Source of the DNA: an uncultured Clostridia bacterium | GTDB taxonomy: Bacteria > Bacillota > Clostridia > Christensenellales > Borkfalkiaceae | Reading direction: 5' to 3' | DNA length: 64,000 nucleotides | Assembly: GCA_947626575.1 (NCBI GenBank) | Contig: CANQSR010000008.1 | Coordinates: forward strand, 1 to 64,000 | Shown: piece after piece, positions 1 through 12,111 of the stretch | Layout of the letters: each line of letters opens with the position of its first letter | Numbering within the stretch: the first letter of the stretch is position 1 | The notes under the pieces: generated by a model | What the model saw: the letters and a program-made list of their open reading frames with translations, nothing else | Told to the model about the DNA's origin: nothing | Database searches by the model: none | Made by a program: the position numbers and the translations under genes

Positions 1-160
1 AAGTGAGGCGGAAATCCATCGTGGAATTTGCAAAAACGTTTGCGACCGAAGCGGCCGATGCGGACATGGGTCCCACGAAAGCGGTCAACATGCAAAAAAG
101 AATGATTGCGGCAAACAGCGCCGAGAGCGCCGCGAGTAGCTTGCTTTTTGAAAATGTCAT
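1..160 (-). CDS. Secreted or membrane protein, N-terminal fragment (runs off the left edge)
   Basis: ATG at 160 overlaps the TGA of the upstream gene (ATGA) and has a GGAGG ribosome site inside that gene. The 53 visible codons start MTFSKSKLLAALSALF and continue with a hydrophobic core and a small-residue stretch (MSASAASVAN) that looks like a signal peptidase site. It is the last visible member of the minus-strand operon starting near 3930. The residues after the signal (ANSTMDF) loosely recall the same place in the 676-residue neighbour (AKSAVMDDL), so the two may be related; this is inference. Function is unknown and most of the gene lies outside the window. Confidence 0.75.
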   Translation of the reverse strand, partial: MTFSKSKLLAALSALFAAIILFCMLTAFVGPMSASAASVANVFANSTMDFRLT

Positions 161-2187
161 GATTTTTCCCTCCGGTTCTTCTTAATGACTTTATAGATGA
201 TGACGCCGATCAGAACGGCGACGACGACGGTGAGGATCACCGCGAGGATCTTCTCCCAAACGCGTTTATCGCTATGGACATCGAGGGGCGGCGTCCCATC
301 GCTCCCGGCATCGATCGGAGAAGAAATACACGGCAAGATGATGGTTTTTGCATCATCGGAAAACTCTAAGTGGATGACATCGACGCCAAGATACACGCTG
401 AGATTGAAAGTCCTGCAATTTGTATCTCCATTATTCCATCCGGTTACAAGGCCATTGGGAGATGTTGGAACCCCTTCATGTGCCTCGACGGCTTGATATG
501 TACCGACGTCATACCGTATCAATACAACGGTTTCATCGTTTTTTGCGGCATCATCGTAAAATTCTTTGAACTCATCATAGTCGTCGATGTTGATATACAG
601 CGCGTTGCAGGTGGCCGCTTTGCTTGATTTGAAATCATCCTTTCCAACGGGGTAAATGGCCTTGATCCCGTCAAATTTAGATGTGTTGATCGTATAAGCC
701 TCTTCGGCGTCAAAGCGGAGGTACCCACTATCCGCATCGAGGCCTTTCCATCGGCGGTCGATCGTTGCATCCGTAAGCGTATAAGTCATATCGGCGGATA
801 TATCCATGACCGATTTTTTCTTCGCTACCCATTGAAAGAGGGCGCGGCTATATGGATACGTCACGCCGCCGACTTTTACGAGATCGCCGTTATACGGCGC
901 ATCATAAATAAAATTTCCGCCTTTTACGGGATCTTGTCCCACAAGATGCTGCGGTTGCTCGTACGCTTCATCATAGTAACTGTGGGCATGATCATATTGC
1001 GCGGTGTAGCCCTGCATCCATTCGAGAATTGTCTCCCAAGGCACGATATATGTATCGCCGCTATCGGTCGAATAATCGCTTGTATGAAAGAGGAACGGGA
1101 TATAGGATAACGTCGATTGAGAGCCGGGGCGGTTGCCGTTGAACGTCCCCGCCAGCTCTGAGGAGAAGCCATATTGAATCGGAAGAGGTTGACCGTTGTC
1201 GTTTTTGTACTGATACATGGAATTACCCTTCATCTTATCCCATGTGCCGAAGGTATTCACGCCGACCCAATCAATGAGCGCATTATATATATCTTTGTTT
1301 CCCGTAACGAAACCCCATGCGGTTTGCGCTTTTAGCCACTCCATGCGGACGTTGGTGAGCGTAAAGTCGTTTTCGAAATACTTGTTGGGGATAGAGAAAT
1401 AGACGGATTGTAGCGTATCCTGCGTGAATTCATTAACGCCATTCGATCCGCTGGGGCGGTAAAAGGTTTGGCGGAGACCGCCTTGACGCTCAATGTCGAG
1501 GATATCGGTGGCGTCTTTGGTGAACGTCAGCGTGCTTTCGGTCTGCGCACCGGCGCCGTATCCCTTGACATAGCCCGTGAAGGTGTAAGTCTGCGCGATC
1601 GCGTATTCCGTCGCATTGAAAGAGGCGGGGTCGCGAAGCTCGAAGCCGCTGAGCTTGTAAACGCGTTCCTCGCTCTTCGCCAGCTCTTCGAGAAGCTCAT
1701 CGCGCGTATTCTCGCCCAACGAGATCTGAAATTTGTAAAACCGCCCGTCGCATCCGTCGGCGGCCGTACTGCGGTTGAGATAGATCATGCTATATTTTCG
1801 ATAGCCTTGCTCATTCACCGCGAGTTGGATCTTGTTAAAATATGTATTGGCCGCGACGGAGTTATCAAAGGTAATCCCGCCGGGGTTGTAGACGTAAGCA
1901 AAAAGCCCGAAGTCCTTTGCCTTCGCGGGATCTTTGCTGAAACAATACTCGGTGAAAAGCAAAAGCTCCGGCGCGGCATCCGCCTTAGCCGGGTAGTCGT
2001 CGAGATCGAAGATCTTGCCGTCGATCGTTGCGCCTTTCAGATCGTCCATGACGGCGCTCTTCGCGTACGAGACGGAGGCATCCGCGGCGCGAACAAGTAC
2101 GCCGCGGGCCTCAGTCAAGAAGGAGAGAGCCGCGATCGCGGCGATGAGGATAAGCGTCGATATGGTTGTGGATATGCGTCGGATCAT
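157..2187 (-). CDS. Large type I membrane-anchored surface protein of unknown function
   Basis: 676 residues with an N-terminal signal or anchor (about residues 8-30), a roughly 600-residue polar, aromatic-rich ectodomain, and a C-terminal membrane span (about 645-668, KILAVILTVVVAVLIGVI) followed by a basic tail KKNRREKS. This topology places the bulk outside the cell. It is coupled by ATGA overlaps to the genes on both sides. From memory, the segment after the signal (DDLKGATIDGKIFDLDDYP, then FAYVYNPGG) resembles large membrane proteins found on prophage-like elements of gut Firmicutes. I cannot name a family. No enzyme motif is visible. Confidence 0.8.
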   Translation of the reverse strand: MIRRISTTISTLILIAAIAALSFLTEARGVLVRAADASVSYAKSAVMDDLKGATIDGKIFDLDDYPAKADAAPELLLFTEYCFSKDPAKAKDFGLFAYVYNPGGITFDNSVAANTYFNKIQLAVNEQGYRKYSMIYLNRSTAADGCDGRFYKFQISLGENTRDELLEELAKSEERVYKLSGFELRDPASFNATEYAIAQTYTFTGYVKGYGAGAQTESTLTFTKDATDILDIERQGGLRQTFYRPSGSNGVNEFTQDTLQSVYFSIPNKYFENDFTLTNVRMEWLKAQTAWGFVTGNKDIYNALIDWVGVNTFGTWDKMKGNSMYQYKNDNGQPLPIQYGFSSELAGTFNGNRPGSQSTLSYIPFLFHTSDYSTDSGDTYIVPWETILEWMQGYTAQYDHAHSYYDEAYEQPQHLVGQDPVKGGNFIYDAPYNGDLVKVGGVTYPYSRALFQWVAKKKSVMDISADMTYTLTDATIDRRWKGLDADSGYLRFDAEEAYTINTSKFDGIKAIYPVGKDDFKSSKAATCNALYINIDDYDEFKEFYDDAAKNDETVVLIRYDVGTYQAVEAHEGVPTSPNGLVTGWNNGDTNCRTFNLSVYLGVDVIHLEFSDDAKTIILPCISSPIDAGSDGTPPLDVHSDKRVWEKILAVILTVVVAVLIGVIIYKVIKKNRREKS

Positions 2188-2339
2188 GCGTTGTCGTCCT
2201 CTATATAGCCGATGGCTTCTTTTGCGAGTTTAGACGCGCAGTCGTGGGTGTCTATGTAGGGGCAGTCGGGGCATGCGGGTTCAGATTGTGAACAGCACGC
2301 AAGCCCTTTGCGGATCTTCTGAACTTGTTTTTGCGTCAT
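2184..2339 (-). CDS. Small cysteine-rich phage-type protein
   Basis: 51 residues starting MTQKQVQKIRKGLACC, with the pattern CC-SQSEPAC-PDC-PYIDTHDC, six cysteines in the first half. Small proteins with this GL-CC...C..CPY....C layout are common on Firmicutes phages and conjugative elements, where the cysteines probably bind zinc; the role is unknown. The ATG at 2339 was chosen because it overlaps the stop of the upstream gene (ATGA at 2336-2339). A longer reading from 2471 would lie antiparallel in frame to nothing useful and overlaps the neighbour for 130 bases. The stop overlaps the next start (2184-2187). It is therefore embedded in the surface-protein operon. Confidence 0.7.
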   Translation of the reverse strand: MTQKQVQKIRKGLACCSQSEPACPDCPYIDTHDCASKLAKEAIGYIEDDNA

Positions 2340-3625
2340 GCCTTCGCCTCCTGTATAGACCGGGCGCAAAGGCGCGCGCCTACTTCGGGGAAAACTCCCG
2401 TTTCGGTCAACCCGCTCGCTGATGAGAACAGGCCGTAGACCGCGGCCTCGAAGGCCTCGCCCGTCCAGCATCCGCCGACGTACATCGTCTTTCCGCCGCT
2501 GTAATCGTACACAGAATAGATATCTGCCGTGTAGTTGAGTTTCAGCTCATCGGCGCCCCAATCGGTATCATCGAGGAGCGCTGGGAAGATCACGGAATGC
2601 GCCTTGTCGCCCGTTCCCGGCCGTAAGGCCCGGATGACGCCTGTCGATAGCGGGCGCGCAAAGCCGAGATCCACGCCGCCTTCGGCGTCGGAAAATTCAT
2701 CGGGATCTGCGATGTAGAAGATGTGATCTTTTTCGAAACGGATGCCGTCTACCCATGCCGCCATATTCCCGGCGGAATTTTCGACGCCGAGGAATTTGTT
2801 GACGTTGGTGTTGGTCTGCCAACCCGTGAGATTTTTGATAAATTCCGTGCCGCCCGTGGCCATGGGGCCATCGAGCGCGTCTCCCTGCCCGACGATCCCC
2901 GGATTTACACTTTGGATATCCATCGTTCGGAGATAGCACGCGGTGAGGAGCTGATAGACCGTCCACATGGATATGTCGAGCTGTTGGTAATAACCGCCGT
3001 TGCCTTCTTTTGCGTTATAGGCACGTGCAAGATCTCGGCATTCACTGCGCGTGAGGTTGCCCGTGGGCTGATATTGTGTTTTTGAAACCAATTCGCCGGC
3101 AGAAACATAGCCTTCGTATTTGCCGATGTAAAAGGCATCGGTGATTTTGCCCTCCGCATCCTTATAGGCATCGGGGATGAAGTAATTGTTCCCCGCTTTA
3201 TAGTTTGCGAAGTTGACGCCCTCGATGTTGCCCGCGGCGTCGAGTTCGTAACTCATGTAGAGTTTCGGAAACTCAATGAACGCATTGCCGTATTGGTCTT
3301 TCACTTCTCGAATGAGCTTATAGGGGAAGATCTCATCGAGCTTAGACGTAACGGCAACGATATGCGTCGCATCCGGCTTCGCCGCCGGGTTTTCGTGAGT
3401 TTCAAACGCCGCTTCGCCGTTATATTGGGCGATATCGTGCGTCCACGTGAGCGTGCTGTCCTCGTTTTGCATGCCGGTAAAGCCGATCACCGTACGGTCT
3501 CCGCCGCCGATGGGGGCGAAGGCATCCCGCGCTTTGACGATGATTGCCGCCGCGCCGCCGACGATCATGAGCGCGAAGATCGCCGTCAGCACGTAACATA
3601 CAATTTTTCCAAAGCCACTTTTCAT
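2336..3625 (-). CDS. Membrane-anchored protein with a C-type-lectin/FGE-like C-terminal domain
   Basis: 429 residues. An N-terminal anchor (about 7-30) precedes an extracellular part. Residues about 150-429 have the layout of phage C-type-lectin or formylglycine-enzyme-like display domains: FYIGKYEGYV, then an ARAYN helix, ISMWTVYQLLTACYLRT, a GNMAAWVDGIRF core, and the end segment VGGCW...GLFSSASG...VGARLCA. In phages and diversity-generating retroelements (DGRs) that fold presents the variable ligand-binding surface. Here no reverse transcriptase or template repeat is in view. It is the second gene of the repressor-controlled operon. The fold assignment rests on motif layout, not on a search. 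ATG at 3625 follows an AGGAGG site. Confidence 0.7.
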   Translation of the reverse strand: MKSGFGKIVCYVLTAIFALMIVGGAAAIIVKARDAFAPIGGGDRTVIGFTGMQNEDSTLTWTHDIAQYNGEAAFETHENPAAKPDATHIVAVTSKLDEIFPYKLIREVKDQYGNAFIEFPKLYMSYELDAAGNIEGVNFANYKAGNNYFIPDAYKDAEGKITDAFYIGKYEGYVSAGELVSKTQYQPTGNLTRSECRDLARAYNAKEGNGGYYQQLDISMWTVYQLLTACYLRTMDIQSVNPGIVGQGDALDGPMATGGTEFIKNLTGWQTNTNVNKFLGVENSAGNMAAWVDGIRFEKDHIFYIADPDEFSDAEGGVDLGFARPLSTGVIRALRPGTGDKAHSVIFPALLDDTDWGADELKLNYTADIYSVYDYSGGKTMYVGGCWTGEAFEAAVYGLFSSASGLTETGVFPEVGARLCARSIQEAKA

Positions 3626-3657
3626 TCAGTGGTCCTCCTGTTTTGCCGCCTTCGGCG

Positions 3658-3930
3658 TCACATTGACGCGGCGTCTATATTTTGTAAAAATTCATCCAAT
3701 TCTGAGGACATCGTATCAAGGTTATCGATCGCATCTTGCAGGGCATCGATGGCGGCCTGCGCATTCAGACCCTTTATCCCGTTTTGAAACGGTTCGGGCA
3801 TCATGTCGTAATAGTCTTGCTCTTCGGCTTGGATCTGTTGGAGATCTTCGCTGACTGATGCGAGCTTTTCGATGATCGCATCGGTGCGGACTGCGATCTC
3901 GTTGAGGCGTTTCCTTCGTTCTTTGTTCAT
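3658..3930 (-). CDS. Small coiled-coil phage-type protein
   Basis: 90 residues starting MNKERRKRLNEIAVRTDAI. Charged and helical throughout, with EKLASVSEDLQQIQAEEQ and a DALQDAIDNLDTMSSELDEF end that look like a two-helix coiled coil. The middle motif EEQDYYDMMPEPFQN...A is typical of small helical proteins on Firmicutes phages and conjugative elements; their function is not known. A TTG at 3954 would add eight residues but lies inside the palindromic operator, so the ATG at 3930 is preferred. It is the first gene of the leftward operon and lies directly after the promoter at 3973-4001. Confidence 0.7.
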   Translation of the reverse strand: MNKERRKRLNEIAVRTDAIIEKLASVSEDLQQIQAEEQDYYDMMPEPFQNGIKGLNAQAAIDALQDAIDNLDTMSSELDEFLQNIDAASM

Positions 3931-3947
3931 TTCCGTTTTCCCTTTAC

Positions 3948-4012
3948 TCGCCAAGTTGGCGATTTTGAAACCATTATATCGCCATATAGACGATTTGTCA
4001 ACAGTTTGGCGA
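3948..4012. promoter_or_regulatory. Three operator-like sites in a divergent control region
   Basis: Site 1 (3948-3962) is a perfect palindrome, TCGCCAA-G-TTGGCGA. Site 2 (3979-3993, TCGCCATATAGACGA) and site 3 (3998-4012, TCAACAGTTTGGCGA) keep the same 15-base length and one good half-site each. Site 1 is just downstream of the predicted leftward transcription start, site 2 fills the gap between the -10 and -35 boxes, and site 3 covers the -35 box. Site 3 is also nearest the rightward repressor gene. This matches a temperate-phage switch in which the adjacent XRE protein would bind all three. Binding itself is inferred. Confidence 0.75.
3973..4001 (-). promoter_or_regulatory. Consensus sigma-A promoter of the surface-protein operon
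   Basis: On the minus strand TTGACA (3996-4001) and TATAAT (3973-3978) are separated by exactly 17 bases. Both hexamers are perfect, so the operon should be strong when not repressed. Transcription would start near 3966 and run through 3930 to beyond position 1. Confidence 0.85.
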
Positions 4013-4019
4013 TAAATAA

Positions 4020-4047
4020 TTGAGATTTTCTTTGGTGCAATTAAAAT
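4020..4047 (+). promoter_or_regulatory. Promoter of the XRE repressor gene, probably giving a leaderless mRNA
   Basis: TTGAGA (4020-4025) and TAAAAT (4042-4047), 16 bases apart. The expected start point, about seven bases after the -10 box, is the A of the ATG at 4054. No Shine-Dalgarno sequence is present upstream. Confidence 0.55.
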
Positions 4048-4053
4048 AAAGCT

Positions 4054-4386
4054 ATGGAAAATCTGAAACTATTGAGAAAAGAACAGGGACTTACTCTTGA
4101 TCAATTGGCGATGCAATTGGGTTTGACGCGGCAAGTGCTTTCGCGATACGAGCGCGGGGAGCGGCAAGCCGATTATAGTACGTTGATCAAAATCGCGAAA
4201 TATTTCGACGTTTCCGTTGATTATTTGCTGGGGAATTCCACTTACTACTATCCGGATTTAGTGCGGGGACGGAAGGGAGATTTTACCACGCTCGAAGAGG
4301 ATCTCATCACTTTGTTCCGGCGTCTCCCCGCTCAGACGCAAGACTATGTTTTTGGCATTGTAAAAAGCCTTGCCGTTAATTCATAG
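4054..4386 (+). CDS. XRE-family repressor
   Basis: 110 residues. Residues 1-62 form a Cro/C1-type helix-turn-helix (KLLRKEQGLTLDQLAMQLGL, then RQVLSRYERGERQAD and LIKIAKYFDVSVDYLLG). The short C-terminal part lacks a peptidase, so it is not a self-cleaving LexA/CI type. It sits divergent to the surface-protein operon and next to three palindromic sites, which suggests it represses that operon and possibly itself. There is no ribosome site before the ATG. It is followed after 20 bases by a small membrane protein and then the integrase, the arrangement of an integrative element's control module. Confidence 0.9.
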   Translation: MENLKLLRKEQGLTLDQLAMQLGLTRQVLSRYERGERQADYSTLIKIAKYFDVSVDYLLGNSTYYYPDLVRGRKGDFTTLEEDLITLFRRLPAQTQDYVFGIVKSLAVNS

Positions 4387-4406
4387 AAAAAATTTTGGAG
4401 GAGTAT

Positions 4407-4673
4407 ATGAATTTACTTATTACGCTTTTAGATGCAACGCCACCTTTATTGACGACTTCGGATGAAGCCGCGGCCAATATTGTATTGCCGGCATCTTCCA
4501 TATGGTTGATGATATTTATTTTTATGGTGCTTGTAGCCGTGATCGTTGTTATGATGCTCATTATGATTATCATGGTCCTCGATCGGATGCCAAGACGCAA
4601 AAAAGATAAAAAGAAAGTGGAAAAATATCAAGATACTGCTACCGCAGATGCCGATAAGGATGAAACGGCTTAA
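4407..4673 (+). CDS. Small single-span membrane protein
   Basis: 88 residues starting MNLLITLLDATPP. One long hydrophobic segment (about 29-54, SIWLMIFIFMVLVAVIVVMM) is followed by a basic stretch (RMPRRKKDKKKVEK) and an acidic tail, so the C-terminus is probably cytoplasmic. The ATG at 4407 has a strong GGAGGAG site; an upstream TTG lies inside that site. It is in line with the repressor gene. The function is unknown. Small proteins of this kind next to a repressor can be exclusion or toxin proteins, but nothing in the sequence decides this. Confidence 0.7.
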   Translation: MNLLITLLDATPPLLTTSDEAAANIVLPASSIWLMIFIFMVLVAVIVVMMLIMIIMVLDRMPRRKKDKKKVEKYQDTATADADKDETA

Positions 4674-4733
4674 TTGCTTGCTGTAAATTTTTAAGCATGG
4701 TAAAATCCTTCTACAAATTTGTGGGAGGTAGTT

Positions 4734-4781
4734 ATGACAGAACTCGAAAAAAAAGCATCTTTGGTTGTGTTCAGGTCTTGA
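4734..4781 (+). other. Leader mini-ORF overlapping the integrase start, with an A8 slippery run
   Basis: A strong GGGAGG site precedes ATG 4734, which opens a 15-codon frame (MTELEKKASLVVFRS) ending in TGA 4779-4781. That TGA overlaps ATG 4781 of the integrase frame (TGATG). The mini-ORF contains eight A residues read as GAA AAA AAA G. A -1 slip there enters the integrase frame directly. The integrase frame itself has no good ribosome site. Confidence 0.5.
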
Positions 4782-6019
4782 TGACACTTCTAAACGAGGA
4801 TGCAAAGCAAGCAGAGCGCACCGCATCGGCGACGGCTGCCGAGGCGGATCCTTACGGAGGAACGCAGAAGCGTGCGGTCCAAGTGTTGAAAGAATTGTCG
4901 AAAAAGGAGGTGAAGAAAGGGGCGTCGGGCAAAGTGCAAGGGCAATATAAAAAATTGTTGATTTCGAAACGAAAAAAGGAGTTTGAAATGTTATCGAAAT
5001 CGACGCAACAAAAGATTGTGCGAGCTTTATCGCGTGATCCAAGGCTTCATAACCGCGCATACGAGATGCGAGCTGTTATTGACGGCACCGTGATTTATAG
5101 CTGTGCTTCTGATCGAGAGAGTTGTCGGGATATTTTTTTTGAAAAGATTGTTGAGAAAATATTGCATGTGAATGAGACAACACAACAGAGACCGCAGGGA
5201 AAGTCAAAGCGCGGGTGGGTATTTACGGATTTTGCGCAAGAATGGTTCGAGCAGATCCATGCCAAAAAAGTAATTTCCGATACTTATTCCCACGATCTCG
5301 CTATTTATCAGAAGCATATCGTACCCTTTTTCACCCATAGAGATCTTGCCGGTATTACCACCGCGGATTGTATGCGTTATGGGATGAATATGAAAGAGAA
5401 GGGGATCGGGCGAACGGCTGAGCAATGCGACCAGATCCTTCGGCAAATTTTCGATTATGCGGAAGCAGAGAATTTGATTAAGAAAAATCCGATGGAAAAG
5501 TTGAAACGTGTAAAGTCGGAGCGCGAGAACGGGGTGCCGCTTACAAAGAGTGAGGAACGTGCTTTTGTAGAATCCATACGTGGATCGAGGCACGAAGCTG
5601 TGTTTTTGCTGATCCTTTATTGTGGATTGCGTCCCTGCGAGGTTACCTCCGCGCAAATTGACGGCTCGTTTGTTGTTTCGCAAAACCGAAAGCAGAAGGA
5701 CGGGAAGATCGTTTTCAAGAAAATTCCCATTACGCCGATGTTAAGCAAGCATTTAGATGTAATTATGAATGCCCTTCCGATCCTGTCGAGCTTGGTAAAA
5801 AGCATAACGTATATCAATGATTTGTTCCATAAGCATTGTAAAGGGCATAGGTTATACGATTTGCGGACGACTTTTGCAACACGGGCGCAGGAGTGTGAAG
5901 TGCCTGAGACCGTCGTGCAGGCGTGGATGGGACATTCGGCAAAGACGCTTTTAGGAAGGGTTTATACAAAATTTTCCGATGATTACCTTCTGAAAGAAGG
6001 TATGAAGGTGAATTATTAA
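4781..6019 (+). CDS. int: Tyrosine recombinase (phage-type integrase)
   Basis: 412 residues from ATG 4781; the open frame extends to 4697 without a ribosome site. A SAM-like core-binding region (about 160-255, WVFTDFAQEWFEQIHAKK...) precedes the catalytic domain. Visible catalytic residues are the first Arg (YCGLRPCE), a beta-hairpin Lys (QKDGKIVFKKIP), the second Arg (YDLRTTFATRA, with Tyr where His is usual), His in MGHSAKT and the nucleophile Tyr in RVYTKF. It would insert the element into the tRNA 3' end found 100 bases downstream. Translation probably depends on coupling to, or frameshifting from, the leader mini-ORF. Confidence 0.9.
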   Translation: MTLLNEDAKQAERTASATAAEADPYGGTQKRAVQVLKELSKKEVKKGASGKVQGQYKKLLISKRKKEFEMLSKSTQQKIVRALSRDPRLHNRAYEMRAVIDGTVIYSCASDRESCRDIFFEKIVEKILHVNETTQQRPQGKSKRGWVFTDFAQEWFEQIHAKKVISDTYSHDLAIYQKHIVPFFTHRDLAGITTADCMRYGMNMKEKGIGRTAEQCDQILRQIFDYAEAENLIKKNPMEKLKRVKSERENGVPLTKSEERAFVESIRGSRHEAVFLLILYCGLRPCEVTSAQIDGSFVVSQNRKQKDGKIVFKKIPITPMLSKHLDVIMNALPILSSLVKSITYINDLFHKHCKGHRLYDLRTTFATRAQECEVPETVVQAWMGHSAKTLLGRVYTKFSDDYLLKEGMKVNY

Positions 6020-6125
6020 GTTTTGCCCCCAAAAACAGCCCCCAAAGTTGATGAATATTATTCTTGGATGATATGGCGTTTTGCGAATAGAAAACTGTAA
6101 TTTTGCAAAAACGTGTATTTTTTTT
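6020..6125 (+). other. Integrase-to-att spacer with short repeats
   Basis: This 106-base A/T-rich stretch between the integrase and the tRNA fragment has two close copies of GCCCCCAAA (near 6024 and 6038) and an imperfect inverted pair built on TTTTGC...GCAAAA. Such short repeats beside a tyrosine recombinase are often arm-type or core-flanking sites. No ORF or promoter is evident. Confidence 0.35.
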
Positions 6126-6127
6126 GT

Positions 6128-6161
6128 TGTGGTTGAGGTTCGAATCCACCTCTTCCCACCA
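6128..6161 (+). other. attR: Attachment site: 3' end of a tRNA gene
   Basis: GGTTCGAATCC followed by ACCTCTTCCC-ACCA has the T loop, the 3' acceptor strand TCTTCCC, discriminator A and the CCA end of a tRNA. The 5' T-stem strand (TGAGG) no longer pairs with CCACC, and no D arm, anticodon arm or 5' acceptor strand precedes it. This is what integration into a tRNA 3' end leaves at one element boundary. The intact tRNA should lie at the other end, left of the window. Confidence 0.75.
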
Positions 6162-6292: not shown

Positions 6293-6499
6293 ATGGATTT
6301 TGGGTATTATATAGATTATTTTCATTTTTTGGAAAAGCGACTTTTAGATACTAAACGTTATGTCGCATTTGAAAAAGAAAATCTTGATGTGTTTTCGATT
6401 GAATTTGCGAGTATCATAAATGACTGTTGCGGGATTATCAATGGCTTTTGCTTTGAACTTTGCCAAGCGGAAAATCCTAAAAAAGATAGATTTTATTGA
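6293..6499 (+). CDS. Small hypothetical protein overlapping a DUF6339-like gene
   Basis: 68 residues starting MDFGYYIDYFHFLEKR, after AAGGAG. A good TATAAT-like box (near 6252) lies upstream. Charged and helical, with ENLDVFSIEFASIINDCCGIINGFC in the second half. The reading ends at 6499, while the next frame (DUF6339-like) is open from 6420. Two neighbouring genes rarely overlap by 80 bases, so either the second gene starts later (TTG near 6522, after AAGGA) or the two were once a single frame broken by an indel. The function is unknown. Confidence 0.5.
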   Translation: MDFGYYIDYFHFLEKRLLDTKRYVAFEKENLDVFSIEFASIINDCCGIINGFCFELCQAENPKKDRFY

Positions 6500-7073
6500 A
6501 ACCAAAAGCAAGGATGATCTATTGAATGTCAAACTTTTGTATTCCGCCTATAAAGACAAGTTAATGCCGCTACAGGCTTCTGATCCATTATTATGGTCTG
6601 CGTTGTGTCACATAACATTTAAAGATTATGTGCTAAAGCGTTGGAAAAAGGACAATGGAGAAGTCAGTATTGCACAGAGATTTTTTGCGACGGAAGGTCG
6701 CGGATCTTTGACATATTATAATGCAATATCGCGCTTGTGGTGGTCGGGCTATTTGACTTATGACGAAGACCGTGCATCTACGAATCCGTGGCATTTAACC
6801 GAAACCCTGTTTTCTGCGCAACAAATACAAAAAGATTTGTTTGACCAATCCTTTAGCATGAACCGTACTATTGTGAAAGGACTACTGTCTGCCTTGAAGC
6901 GTGTGCAGGAAGAAAATGGAAATAAATGCACCATCATCTTTCGAGAATGTTGTGACTCTTATATAAATCATTTTGGAGCAGTTTCGATATTGGATACACT
7001 TTCTGCCGCCGAGATTGAGGCTGTTGCGTATGAATATATGAGGAAATTGGTTAAGACCACCCCTATCAATTAA
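6420..7073 (+). CDS. DUF6339-like protein
   Basis: 217 residues in the longest reading; the real start may be a TTG near 6522. The core SALCHITFKDYVLKRWKK ... YNAISRLWWSGYLTYDEDR ... PWHLTETLFSAQQIQKDLFD matches my memory of the DUF6339 family of uncharacterised proteins, which often sit in accessory and defence-rich regions. No catalytic motif is visible. The gene lies just right of the attachment site, so it belongs to the chromosome or to a neighbouring accessory block. Compared with the rest of the window its base composition is A/T-rich, which suggests transfer. Confidence 0.65.
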   Translation: MTVAGLSMAFALNFAKRKILKKIDFIETKSKDDLLNVKLLYSAYKDKLMPLQASDPLLWSALCHITFKDYVLKRWKKDNGEVSIAQRFFATEGRGSLTYYNAISRLWWSGYLTYDEDRASTNPWHLTETLFSAQQIQKDLFDQSFSMNRTIVKGLLSALKRVQEENGNKCTIIFRECCDSYINHFGAVSILDTLSAAEIEAVAYEYMRKLVKTTPIN

Positions 7074-8630: not shown

Positions 8631-9449
8631 ATGATTTTCCTCATTGTATTTTTAGTGATATTGTTTGCCCTGTTGGCGGTATTTATCGGGCTGCATATCA
8701 ATCAAAAACGATATACCGCTTTCGTATCGGAAAACAGTTTATGCTTTTGTTCGCTGAAAGAAATCAATTCAAGATTTACCTTTTACCCGAAGATAAACTA
8801 CGATCAATATCACACTTACGATAATGAAGACTTTTACAATACGATCAGCTGTGACGATTATTTGATCTATCAATTGCAATATCAAGCCCAAAAAATAAGC
8901 GAACAAATCGAAAAAATCCGCCGCAATGAAGTCGAATACAAGAAATATCTCGATCAAATAAAAACGTTGCAGCTTGGAAATTTCTCCGCGCCCATCGGGA
9001 AATTGAAGAAAGAAAAGTTATTGAAAATTGAAAAGAGGCTTTGCCATAAAGCAAAACTTTCGGCTCCCGCCACGCAATTTTATCTTACAGTGACGCTGCA
9101 CCGTTCCAATATCAACGGAAGAACGTATGACTCCAAGACAAAAACCTATTCCGCCGAAACCATTTTCATGTTGATAAAACGCTTACGGAACAAGAGTGGA
9201 GCATACTATCGGGACCGCGAAATATGGGATGCTATTTGTCGGGTAGAGAGGGGAAGAGTATCCAATAAAATGCGCTTTTCGATATATGCAAGGGATGGAT
9301 ATAGATGTAGGAAATGCGGCATCTCCCAACGCTATGCCACGCTGGAAATAGATCACATTATCCCGATTGCAAAGGGCGGGAAAAGTACATATGACAATTT
9401 ACAGACCCTTTGCCACAGATGTAACGTCGAGAAAGGAGATAAACTTTAA
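8631..9449 (+). CDS. Membrane-anchored HNH endonuclease-like protein
   Basis: 272 residues. Residues 2-22 (IFLIVFLVILFALLAVFIGL) are a membrane span with no cleavage site. A coiled-coil stretch follows (about 75-130, rich in QAQKISEQIEKIRRNEVEYKK). The C-terminal 50 residues are an HNH domain: CRKCG, then the catalytic LEIDHIIPIAKGG, then LCHRCN, giving a CxxC...CxxC zinc frame with DH as metal ligand. The large insert before it is unassigned. HNH domains tied to the membrane are unusual and suggest cutting of incoming DNA, or a degenerate homing-type protein. It has its own promoter and terminator. The ATG at 8631 has an AAAGG site. Confidence 0.8.
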   Translation: MIFLIVFLVILFALLAVFIGLHINQKRYTAFVSENSLCFCSLKEINSRFTFYPKINYDQYHTYDNEDFYNTISCDDYLIYQLQYQAQKISEQIEKIRRNEVEYKKYLDQIKTLQLGNFSAPIGKLKKEKLLKIEKRLCHKAKLSAPATQFYLTVTLHRSNINGRTYDSKTKTYSAETIFMLIKRLRNKSGAYYRDREIWDAICRVERGRVSNKMRFSIYARDGYRCRKCGISQRYATLEIDHIIPIAKGGKSTYDNLQTLCHRCNVEKGDKL

Positions 9450-9882: not shown

Positions 9883-12111
9883 ATGAAGAAATGGCTTAAA
9901 ATACTTTTACCGCTCATGTTAACGCTCTGTCTTTGCTTCGGGTTCGCGGCGTGCAATACGGCTGTTCCGGGGCCGCAAGGCGAGCAGGGAATCCAAGGGC
10001 CGCAGGGCGAGAAAGGTGAGCAAGGCGAGCAAGGGATCCAAGGACCGCAAGGCGAGCAGGGTGAGCAAGGCGAGCAAGGGATCCAAGGACCGCAAGGCGA
10101 GAAAGGTGAACAGGGCGAGCAAGGGATCCAAGGACCGCAGGGCGAGAAAGGTGAGCAAGGCGAGCAGGGGATCCAAGGGCCGCAGGGCGAGAAAGGTGAA
10201 CAGGGCGAACAGGGGATCCAAGGACCGCAGGGCGAGAAGGGTGAGCAAGGCGAGCAAGGGATCCAAGGACCGCAAGGTGACAAAGGCGAGAAAGGCGATG
10301 ACGCACCTCATGCCAATGAGACACATAAAGTTACATATAACGTAAACGGCGGTACCATGCCTGAGGGGCAAGCGTCGGAAATCACGGTCAACTATGGCGA
10401 TGTACTCGAACTTCCTGTCCCCACGTACACGCATTATATCTTCGAGGGGTGGTATACCGGCGAGGGCGTCAACGACGGAAAGTTCACTTCCGTGACGCCC
10501 GTGACACGCGATATCACGCTCATTGCGCGCTGGAAAGCGGATACGACTTACCGCATTCTCTTCAACACGATGGGCGGAAACGGCATTGCACCCCAAACCT
10601 ACTATTTCGATGAGAAAATCTATGAGCTACCCACGCCCGTTAAATATGACTGTGAGTTTGTAGGTTGGTATCTCGACGAAACGCTTCAAAAACCCGTGGG
10701 CTATCCCCTCACGCTCACGGAGAATACCGAACTTTTTGCGAAGTGGACGACGGCGTATTACTATATCAATTTCCACACCAATTGCGACGTAACCATGTCC
10801 GCAATCTATGCCGCGGCAGGCACTTCTTACAGTGAACTCTCCGCCCCCGATAATGCCCATAAAGAGTTCAAGGGGTGGTATTACGATTCGGGGTTCTCTC
10901 AGCCTGTTGAATATCCCTTTGAACTGCATTCAAACCTCGACGTCTATGCAAAATGGGACGACGTCTACTACACCGTCTCCTTCCAATCCAACGGCGGCAG
11001 TCTTGTTACCGCGCAGAGCTATCTTGCGGGCTTTTTCGTGCATGAATTCCCCACGCCCACGCGCCTGAACTATAAGTTCCTCGGTTGGTATACCGACGGT
11101 GAATTGCACAACAAGGTGAGCTATCCTTACGAAGTGACCGAGAGCATAACGCTCTATGCCGATTGGCAATTTGTCGATCCCTATGCCGACTATGTGAAGA
11201 TTTCCGACGTTGTACAACTCCAAAAGATCAGTGACCGCAACGGGAAATATGTGCTTACAAGTGACATCGACTGCGAGGGCGTACAGCTCTCCATGATCGG
11301 CTCGGAGACGGCTCCCTTCACGGGGCTCTTTCTCGGCGACCACTACACCATTTCAAACTTCTCGCTTTACATTCCGAGCGGCTCCAACGTTGCGGGAATG
11401 TTTGCGGTAAATGGCGGAACAATTCGCGATTTGCACATCGAAAATATGACGGTGGAGTTAAATTATTCCTTGACGGAAAGTGCCAGGAATTACGGAGGAC
11501 TAGTTGGTATAAATAATGGTGCAATTGAGAATGTATCGGTCAATGCCGAGATACTTATGTCGGATATGGGTACTTGTAATAGAAAAAATAACAATACAAA
11601 TACAGGATTGATTGCCGCATATAATACCGGAACCATCAACAATTGTTGTTCAGAAGGGCTACTTTCTTCTCAATTGGACCTTTATTACACAGGTGTCAGG
11701 TATTCGGGTATCCATACCGTAGGCGGCATTAACGGAGTCAATGAAGGCTCTTTGACGAATTGTATGTCGTCGGCTACTGTAATTTCCAATAATGATACAA
11801 CATCCGGTACGCGCATTTCCGCAGGCATCGTCGGTATCAACAATAAAACGGTAGAAAATTGTCTCTTCCTCGGCTCTGTGAGTGGAACCAATACCACTGC
11901 CCAAAATGCCATTTGCGGCTCTATGGGAACGGATGCCACGCAGGAAAATTGCTTTAAGGCGTATAATATCGTTACGGCCGGCGGCAGTAGTGCCACGCTC
12001 AGCTATCTTAACAGCGATTCCTTCTATACGGATACACTCGGTTGGGATAGCTCTATATGGGATATTTACGGCTTAGATTATGAGCGCGGTCTCTATCCGG
12101 CATTGAGATAA
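9883..12111 (+). CDS. Collagen-like, InlB-repeat, GLUG-type surface lipoprotein
   Basis: 742 residues. Lipoprotein signal with lipidated Cys24 (CFGFAAC). Residues about 30-140 are collagen-like Gly-X-Y, mainly six repeats of [15 protein letters not shown]. About 147-440 holds four InlB/Listeria-Bacteroides repeats, each ending in an F-x-GWY...A-W pattern. The remainder (about 445-742) has GLUG-like repeats ([33 protein letters not shown]). It would be anchored in the membrane outer face with a rod-like stalk and an adhesive head. AAGGAG precedes the ATG. Expression may be linked to the structured RNA just upstream. The end of the gene is more A/T-rich than its start. Confidence 0.9.
10006..10275 (+). 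repeat. Six tandem 45-bp repeats (collagen-like stalk)
   Basis: Each unit encodes GE(K/Q)[12 protein letters not shown]. Units are almost identical in DNA, differing mostly at third positions, so copy number should vary by slippage or recombination and change stalk length in 15-residue steps. Confidence 0.9.

Follow-up and report, generated by a model that had tools for sequence, protein, structure and literature searches.

The described systems closest to the element reported here are the filamentous phages known as inoviruses. In Roux et al. (2019; PMC6813254), inoviruses are defined by an ATPase whose closest domain is Zot and which has one or two transmembrane domains (TMDs); in that large survey of filamentous phages the pI ATPase was the only conserved marker gene and formed the basis of the search. 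According to a further report (PMC10061712), secreted inoviruses are known in Enterocloster, a gut genus of the Clostridia. The element in question occupies positions 1 to 6,161 of a 64,000-base stretch (the window; bases 1–64,000 of the 88.5 kb contig C8) from a 1.9 Mb metagenome-assembled genome (MAG) of an uncultured Clostridia bacterium, in 35 contigs. Base 1 of the window is base 1 of C8, and the contig ends within an operon (Table 1). We consider it probable that these positions form the integrase-proximal half of a filamentous-phage-type provirus integrated at tRNA-Tyr, with the operon building the virion. The claim is that such elements work like filamentous phages; it is not that this one is an inovirus.

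The evidence comes chiefly from relatives of the 676-residue protein encoded by the operon, here called SURF, to which hydropathy assigns a type I topology. Within the host family, 118 of 398 genomes, from 12 of 18 genera, have a SURF relative, and a SURF profile finds matches in 70 of 395 genomes sampled from the order, spread over 33 of 142 genera. Their neighbourhoods have several recurrent features. First, an ATPase gene lies downstream of SURF in 19 of 20 SURF-selected loci (L046–L065, mostly on longer contigs): fourteen have an ATPase of about four transmembrane (TM) segments, three a Zot-type ATPase and two a third kind of P-loop ATPase whose TM segments number one or two, while in the twentieth (L053) the contig ends 1.1 kb past SURF. 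Second, of 102 loci examined, 75 have the four-TM ATPase on the SURF strand and within 1.6 kb of SURF, and the recurrent order in this type is c1, c2, SURF, a tiny TM open reading frame (ORF), ATPase, and then either the replication initiator (REP) or c7 (c1, c2 and c7 being protein clusters). Third, in 59 of these 75 loci a tiny single-TM ORF stands between SURF and the ATPase; for the opposite strand the figure is 1 of 75, and for random 400-bp windows it is 12 of 1,840. The count of 59 is descriptive, because the search expression was written after the sequences had been viewed, and most of the 16 loci missed by it hold a similar ORF. Finally, a shorter class of SURF (458–543 residues) was followed up in 16 neighbourhoods, and in 12 of them it precedes the same ATPase. 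Of the other four, three have SURF at or near a contig edge and no ATPase beside it (L191, L195, L199), and one has no SURF match (L204).

Loci were also selected by the ATPase. A scan of a genome collection returned 225 pattern stretches, of which 185 are relatives, and the best 80 of these (L075–L154) are mostly from MAGs labelled Clostridia, Clostridiales, Christensenellaceae or Gallimonas. Profiles find SURF in 63 of these loci, REP in 75, c1 in 46 and c2 in 46; a contig end or the limit of the 10-kb flank truncates many of these loci. In a class-wide sample the ATPase profile matched 4 of 391 genomes, including the MAG of the window. The first-pass annotation, made from the letters of the window, had proposed an integrative element and had asked whether homologues of the operon keep an integrase. 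The picture is mixed, with an integrase match in 10 of the 20 SURF-selected loci and 7 of the 80 ATPase-selected ones, 16 of the latter having a serine recombinase.

A connection to known phages is provided by the Zot-type relatives. Twelve phage records, each named as an inovirus or as a Dulem or bajarodino virus, are matched by the Zot protein of one of them (L047); over 98% of its length this protein is 46% identical to the Zot of PQ006185.1 (Bajarodino virus 12, Inoviridae), a complete circular genome of 9,828 bp from rodent feces. PQ006185.1 resembles the SURF elements in encoding a c1 protein (114 bits; immunoglobulin (Ig)-like and N-anchored, with Big_2), Zot (316 bits) and an XRE protein (95 bits), and a SURF-like 541-residue type I protein (15.6 bits, E 3e-6 among 14 proteins) lies directly before a 59-residue ORF and Zot. 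Its integrase is 57% identical to that on contig C19 of the MAG, described below, and 31% identical to that of the window. It differs from most relatives in having Zot and not the four-TM ATPase and in its size of 9.8 kb, and from the window in giving no match to the profile of the 429-residue operon protein, the 51- and 90-residue proteins lying outside the comparison. Five annotated inovirus records among the 12 matched encode an attachment or TspB protein, a small G6P-like or hypothetical protein, and Zot, in that order, which the order SURF, tiny TM ORF, ATPase parallels.

The relatives resemble the inoviruses of Roux et al. (PMC6813254) in several ways: their attachment sites are in tRNA genes, they have short proteins with a single TMD, the presumed attachment protein is encoded near the ATPase, and many have a G2P-family initiator. 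Short (30–90 residues) single-TMD proteins, for which a structural role is presumed, and a protein of attachment type with a C-terminal TM segment upstream of the assembly ATPase are both present in relatives. The initiator of one relative (L052) scores above the REP_ORF2-G2P cut-off (44.6 versus 27.8 bits), PF23343 is matched in a REP-type relative, and the initiator has an HUH-type motif. Within the MAG of the window REP occurs on contigs C3 and C23. Most relatives fall outside the inovirus definition of that study, because their ATPase has about four TM segments and no Zot match. The combination of Zot as closest domain with one or two TMDs was not found in the window or elsewhere in the MAG, the Zot domain itself being present in relative L055, whose ATPase exceeds the Pfam Zot cut-off (21.5 versus 20.3 bits). 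Strict membership in the inoviruses therefore fails for most relatives.

Integration at a tRNA gene can be followed in relatives more fully than in the window. The 23-base tRNA 3′ end beside the window integrase is present, with at most one mismatch, in 28 of 61 sampled genomes of the genus. Of the 12 loci listed with this end, seven were run through ARAGORN; in six the bases end a tRNA-Tyr(gta), in each case the last of a Met-Asp-Phe-Thr-Tyr cluster, and one has no tRNA. A second copy of this 3′ end was sought across the MAG with up to two mismatches and only the single copy was found; since the contig also stops, the left end of the window element cannot be reached. In a relative on contig C35 of another genome (G057; locus L173), tRNA-Tyr and a second 3′ end are 13,408 bp apart, and ARAGORN calls no tRNA there because the first bases of the gene are missing at the contig edge. 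The integrase gene of this locus lies at the end with the copy, which is also its place in the window; further genes between the two tRNA ends encode an XRE repressor, two c1 proteins, c2, SURF, the four-TM ATPase and, in place of REP, a c7-cluster helix-turn-helix (HTH) protein. We regard L173 as the best guide to what the window element would be when complete. tRNA-Tyr is also the site of L065, whose integrase shares 32% identity with the one in the window. More generally, 18 integrase-bearing loci were examined, and in 7 of them (L049, L057, L059, L060, L062, L065 and L173; six tRNAs were confirmed, that of L059 by eye) SURF is flanked by direct repeats of 23–64 bp that derive from tRNA ends and are 12.1–18.5 kb apart. 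Ten of the remaining 11 have no repeats within the stretch examined, and L055 has only a 17-bp mid-tRNA repeat that was not counted. L049 is the sole case among the three Zot-type loci in which integrase, SURF and Zot all lie inside tRNA-end repeats. Integration at tRNA genes with direct repeats and a small genome, as in inoviruses, is thus seen in relatives, the repeat-bounded elements (12.1–18.5 kb) being larger than the annotated inovirus records compared (5.5–9.8 kb). The proposal of an integrative element is accordingly upheld by relatives with duplicated tRNA ends, whereas the MAG itself lacks the second copy.

The MAG contains a second copy of the operon in a different setting. Next to an intact tRNA-Gln, contig C19 carries an integrase and an XRE repressor that differ from those of the window (29% and 38% identical, respectively), and then a near-identical operon. 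From just before the first gene into SURF (2,415 bp), C8 and C19 have 98.7% identical DNA; no match is detected over the next 1.28 kb, and the final 249 bp are 96.8% identical. The 429-residue protein has a copy on C19 that is 99% identical, and the two SURF proteins are 99% identical in their N-termini and 25% in their ectodomains, the most extreme such pair among 83 SURF sequences, truncated rows aside. Six SURF pairs with like N-termini and unlike ectodomains were found, three of which involve a truncated row (L107) and were not used; the milder full-length cases are 84% versus 45%. The operon block is more than a chance array of reading frames, as the segment 3943–1529 recurs on C19 at 98.7% and SURF is found repeatedly in genomes of the order. 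Both C8 and C19 stop at one base of the operon, the expected outcome where an assembler meets a repeat. The MAG may also combine two strains, each of which contributed one of the operons. A third element, on contig C3 (L071, 7784–17052), has the full gene set including SURF, the four-TM ATPase and REP. Contig C23 starts inside a four-TM ATPase gene, followed by the initiator, and so may continue the element of C8 or of C19. Near the element remnant on C23 there is also a 2,363-residue ORF (L072, 8232–15323), which has TM segments at both termini and partially matches an N-anchored protein of L061.

We infer for these elements a cycle of repression, excision, assembly at the membrane and extrusion driven by an ATPase, with the SURF ectodomain choosing the receptor. 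The XRE protein would silence the operon promoter at 4001–3973; upon derepression the operon would make membrane-anchored virion proteins, and the integrase would excise the element. SURF would sit at one particle end as the attachment (pIII-like) protein; further virion proteins would be the N-anchored ones (that of 429 residues here, c1 and c2 in relatives), and the tiny single-TM protein would serve as a small coat or cap protein. The replicated DNA would be extruded through this set of virion proteins, without lysis, by a membrane ATPase presumably encoded in the missing part, and the SURF ectodomain would set the receptor and be exchanged between proviruses with different repressors and integration sites. 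It is close to an even call, leaning slightly to the negative, whether the elements are an order-wide and largely unrecognised group of extruded, non-lytic Clostridia phages in which the four-TM ATPase replaces the Zot/pI motor and attachment ectodomains are interchangeable between heteroimmune proviruses in one cell. Since that motor does not match Zot models, Zot-based searches would miss the lineage, and the inovirus literature searched for Gram-positive, Christensenellales and Clostridia hosts, for the most part papers free of subscription, does not describe it. If correct, the proposal adds a class of Clostridia phages, and both the extrusion of a filamentous-type phage from a single-membrane host and the swapping of receptor-binding domains between co-resident proviruses become testable.

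Several observations weigh against the filamentous-phage reading. First, the window holds neither an ATPase nor an initiator gene, the contig ending in the operon, and no Zot was found in the MAG at an E-value of 1. Second, SURF queries match no phage record, the match in PQ006185.1 being weak. Third, a major coat protein was not identified, small TM ORFs being the sole candidates. Fourth, the gene order of the Zot-type loci differs, with Zot downstream of SURF by 5.5 kb (L047), 4.4 kb (L049) and 6.9 kb (L055), and with SURF ahead of c1 and c2 in L047 and L049. Fifth, the genes for the 429- and 90-residue proteins were found in no relative except C19 among 104 loci. Finally, among 2.9 million viral contigs, pattern scans picked out a single one with both the four-TM ATPase and SURF, so that particles are unobserved for the four-TM branch, and yet SURF occurs in more than a sixth of the sampled genomes of one order. 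Scans of viral contigs with the 429-residue protein, a 691-residue protein and the Zot alignment gave no relatives, and their short-peptide start may miss divergent ones. The phage record MT835493.1 (L176; 57 kb) and the viral contig IMGVR_UViG_3300027374_000002 (L069; 84 kb) have the four-TM ATPase and far exceed the element size.

The relationship of the ATPases to Zot belongs with these points. Twelve four-TM ATPases gave no Zot match in Pfam; 49 compared with PHROG gave a single weak match, to a family of unknown function, and none to Zot; and the four-TM profile gave one weak match in PDB, to a chain named ATPTB1, and again none to Zot. Four direct profile comparisons between the four-TM and Zot types align the P-loop only, with probabilities of 10 (12 versus 3 rows) and 0.2 (49 versus 9 rows), and the cores taken from the 49-row alignment score 1.0, barely higher than the 0.1–0.6 of permuted and unrelated controls. 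A diverse 14-row core reaches a probability of 85 over 32 columns, as against 0.0–0.3 for six permuted controls. The third ATPase type, as a two-sequence profile, matches Zot with a probability of 93 over 48 columns around Walker B and an RH motif; its comparison with the four-TM core (probability 47) aligns parts that do not correspond. On a reading by eye, the motif order P-loop, TE.GKER, then RH and DEQR appears to be shared.

The rival that survives best, unlikely as we consider it, is a mobilizable or satellite integrative element whose adhesins decorate the host cell on derepression, no particle being made. Such an element would be in keeping with the lectin-like or Ig-like regions of the membrane-anchored proteins (the c1 relative in PQ006185.1 has Big_2), with the PcfJ-family cluster c12 that adjoins many relatives (one member tested) and with the failure to find a coat protein. 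It leaves unexplained, however, the co-encoded ATPase (Zot-type in 3 of 20) and replication initiator, and likewise the c1, Zot, repressor and integrase held in common with a circular Inoviridae genome. The first-pass annotation had envisaged surface proteins dressing either the host cell or the element's own particle and had left the class of the element open; the ATPase downstream of SURF (19/20) and the gene set shared with PQ006185.1 favour the particle, and the class can be narrowed to the filamentous-phage type. A minimal conjugative element, with the four-TM ATPase as coupling or translocation motor, the HUH initiator as relaxase and SURF as contact protein, is more doubtful still: the absence of a Zot match to this P-loop ATPase and the HUH-type motif would be accounted for, but the Pfam family of the initiator is REP_ORF2-G2P and three of the 20 loci have a Zot-type ATPase. 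In addition, family searches of 11 of the 19 called ORFs in the repeat-bounded L173 (the other eight being of at most 124 residues) found no relaxase, type IV secretion system or coupling protein, nor did those of nine window proteins, the window element being incomplete. An internal-membrane phage of tectivirus or plasmavirus type, which would be expected to carry membrane proteins and a packaging-type ATPase, is highly improbable, given the Zot-type relatives and the lack of any capsid or lysis family in the same 11 ORFs, a sequence-family search that a divergent capsid could escape.

The features on which the filamentous-phage reading of the window draws are collected in Table 1. What the first-pass annotation had described there is confirmed: family matches bear out the integrase and the XRE repressor, ARAGORN at loci of the same genus identifies the neighbouring fragment as the end of a tRNA-Tyr(gta), and the minus-strand operon encodes the coiled-coil, N-terminally anchored, cysteine-rich and type I membrane proteins and an incomplete secreted ORF. 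The ATGA coupling attributed to the operon genes is present at three of the four junctions (2339, 2187 and 160) and absent between the coiled-coil and 429-residue genes. A phage-type switch is borne out, as far as sequence can indicate, by the promoter and the clustered ATCGCCAA-like sites. A promoter scan of the stretch finds 11 sites where 5.3 are expected, so the weight lies on the perfect match and its placement; the ATCGCCAA-like motif is not enriched over the 64 kb (79 found, 85 expected), and only the clustering of sites at 3947–4013 is notable.

Table 1. Features of the window element, with the third ATPase type of two relatives
Feature	Position	Strand	Remarks
Fifth operon gene, incomplete	1..160	-	53 residues, signal-like hydrophobic start, cut at contig end; ATGA overlap with SURF
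SURF, 676-residue type I membrane protein	157..2187	-	Signal-like start, C-terminal TM segment
Swapped SURF ectodomain	249..1529	-	No DNA match to C19 copy; flanks 98.7% and 96.8% identical
51-residue protein, five Cys	2184..2339	-	No Pfam or PHROG match
429-residue protein, N-terminal TM segment, tail-protein/lectin-like region	2336..3625	-	PHROG_5302 tail protein 1.5e-13; occupies place of c1/c2 proteins in relatives
90-residue coiled-coil protein	3658..3930	-	PHROG_4068 (unknown function) 2.3e-20
Promoter TTGACA-17-TATAAT, reads into operon	3973..4001	-	12/12 consensus positions
Four putative operators, ATCGCCAA-like, around promoter	3947..4013		Sites at 3947, 3956, 3978, 4006
XRE repressor	4054..4386	+	HTH_3 1.1e-18; PHROG_8 4.8e-23
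92-residue membrane protein, between repressor and integrase	4395..4673	+	ATPPL motif in common with same-place membrane ORF in L173
Tyrosine integrase	4697..6019	+	Pfam Phage_int_M 5.7e-11; PHROG_1 integrase 2.1e-32; 53% identical to L173 integrase
Duplicated tRNA-Tyr(gta) 3′ end, 23 bases, attachment site at integrase end	6139..6161	+	
Third-type membrane P-loop ATPase, downstream of SURF	L056 13191-14627; L065 5214-6488		Profile-related to Zot

The lectin fold proposed for the 429-residue protein remains a prediction, consistent with the PHROG_5302 match and with two distant cellular relatives (G125, G009; loci L009, L010). These lie beside RVT_1 reverse transcriptases, a setting like that of the target proteins of diversity-generating retroelements. 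The copies on C8 and C19 are, unlike such targets, 99% identical; no reverse transcriptase was noticed by eye among the window ORFs, no family search of the MAG having been made, and the retroelement reading was set aside for the 429-residue protein. A tailed-phage reading of the PHROG_5302 "tail protein" label was set aside as well, none of the 11 L173 ORFs searched (of 19) showing a tailed-phage family.

Some further observations concern the surroundings of these elements. To the right of the attachment fragment in the window are genes for a DUF6339 protein (6420–7073, +; 3e-45) and an HNH endonuclease (8631–9449, +; 1.1e-14), and at 9883–12111 (+) one for a 742-residue protein with collagen triple-helix repeats and four stretches of List_Bact repeats. 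The flanking DNA resembles the loci of relatives little beyond the tRNA end, and further insertions may therefore have used the tRNA-Tyr site. Decayed copies of SURF seem to exist, since the matches in G121, G296, G1035, G1128 and others contain in-frame stops. The "SSB" label of cluster c9 was given by looks alone, with no usable match. A PcfJ-like protein is encoded in L046 (16236–17582), and cluster c12 is found in L051, L052, L072 and others, one member having been tested; the recurrence of the PcfJ-like gene and a second conserved gene downstream of REP-type elements suggests nesting in larger mobile elements.

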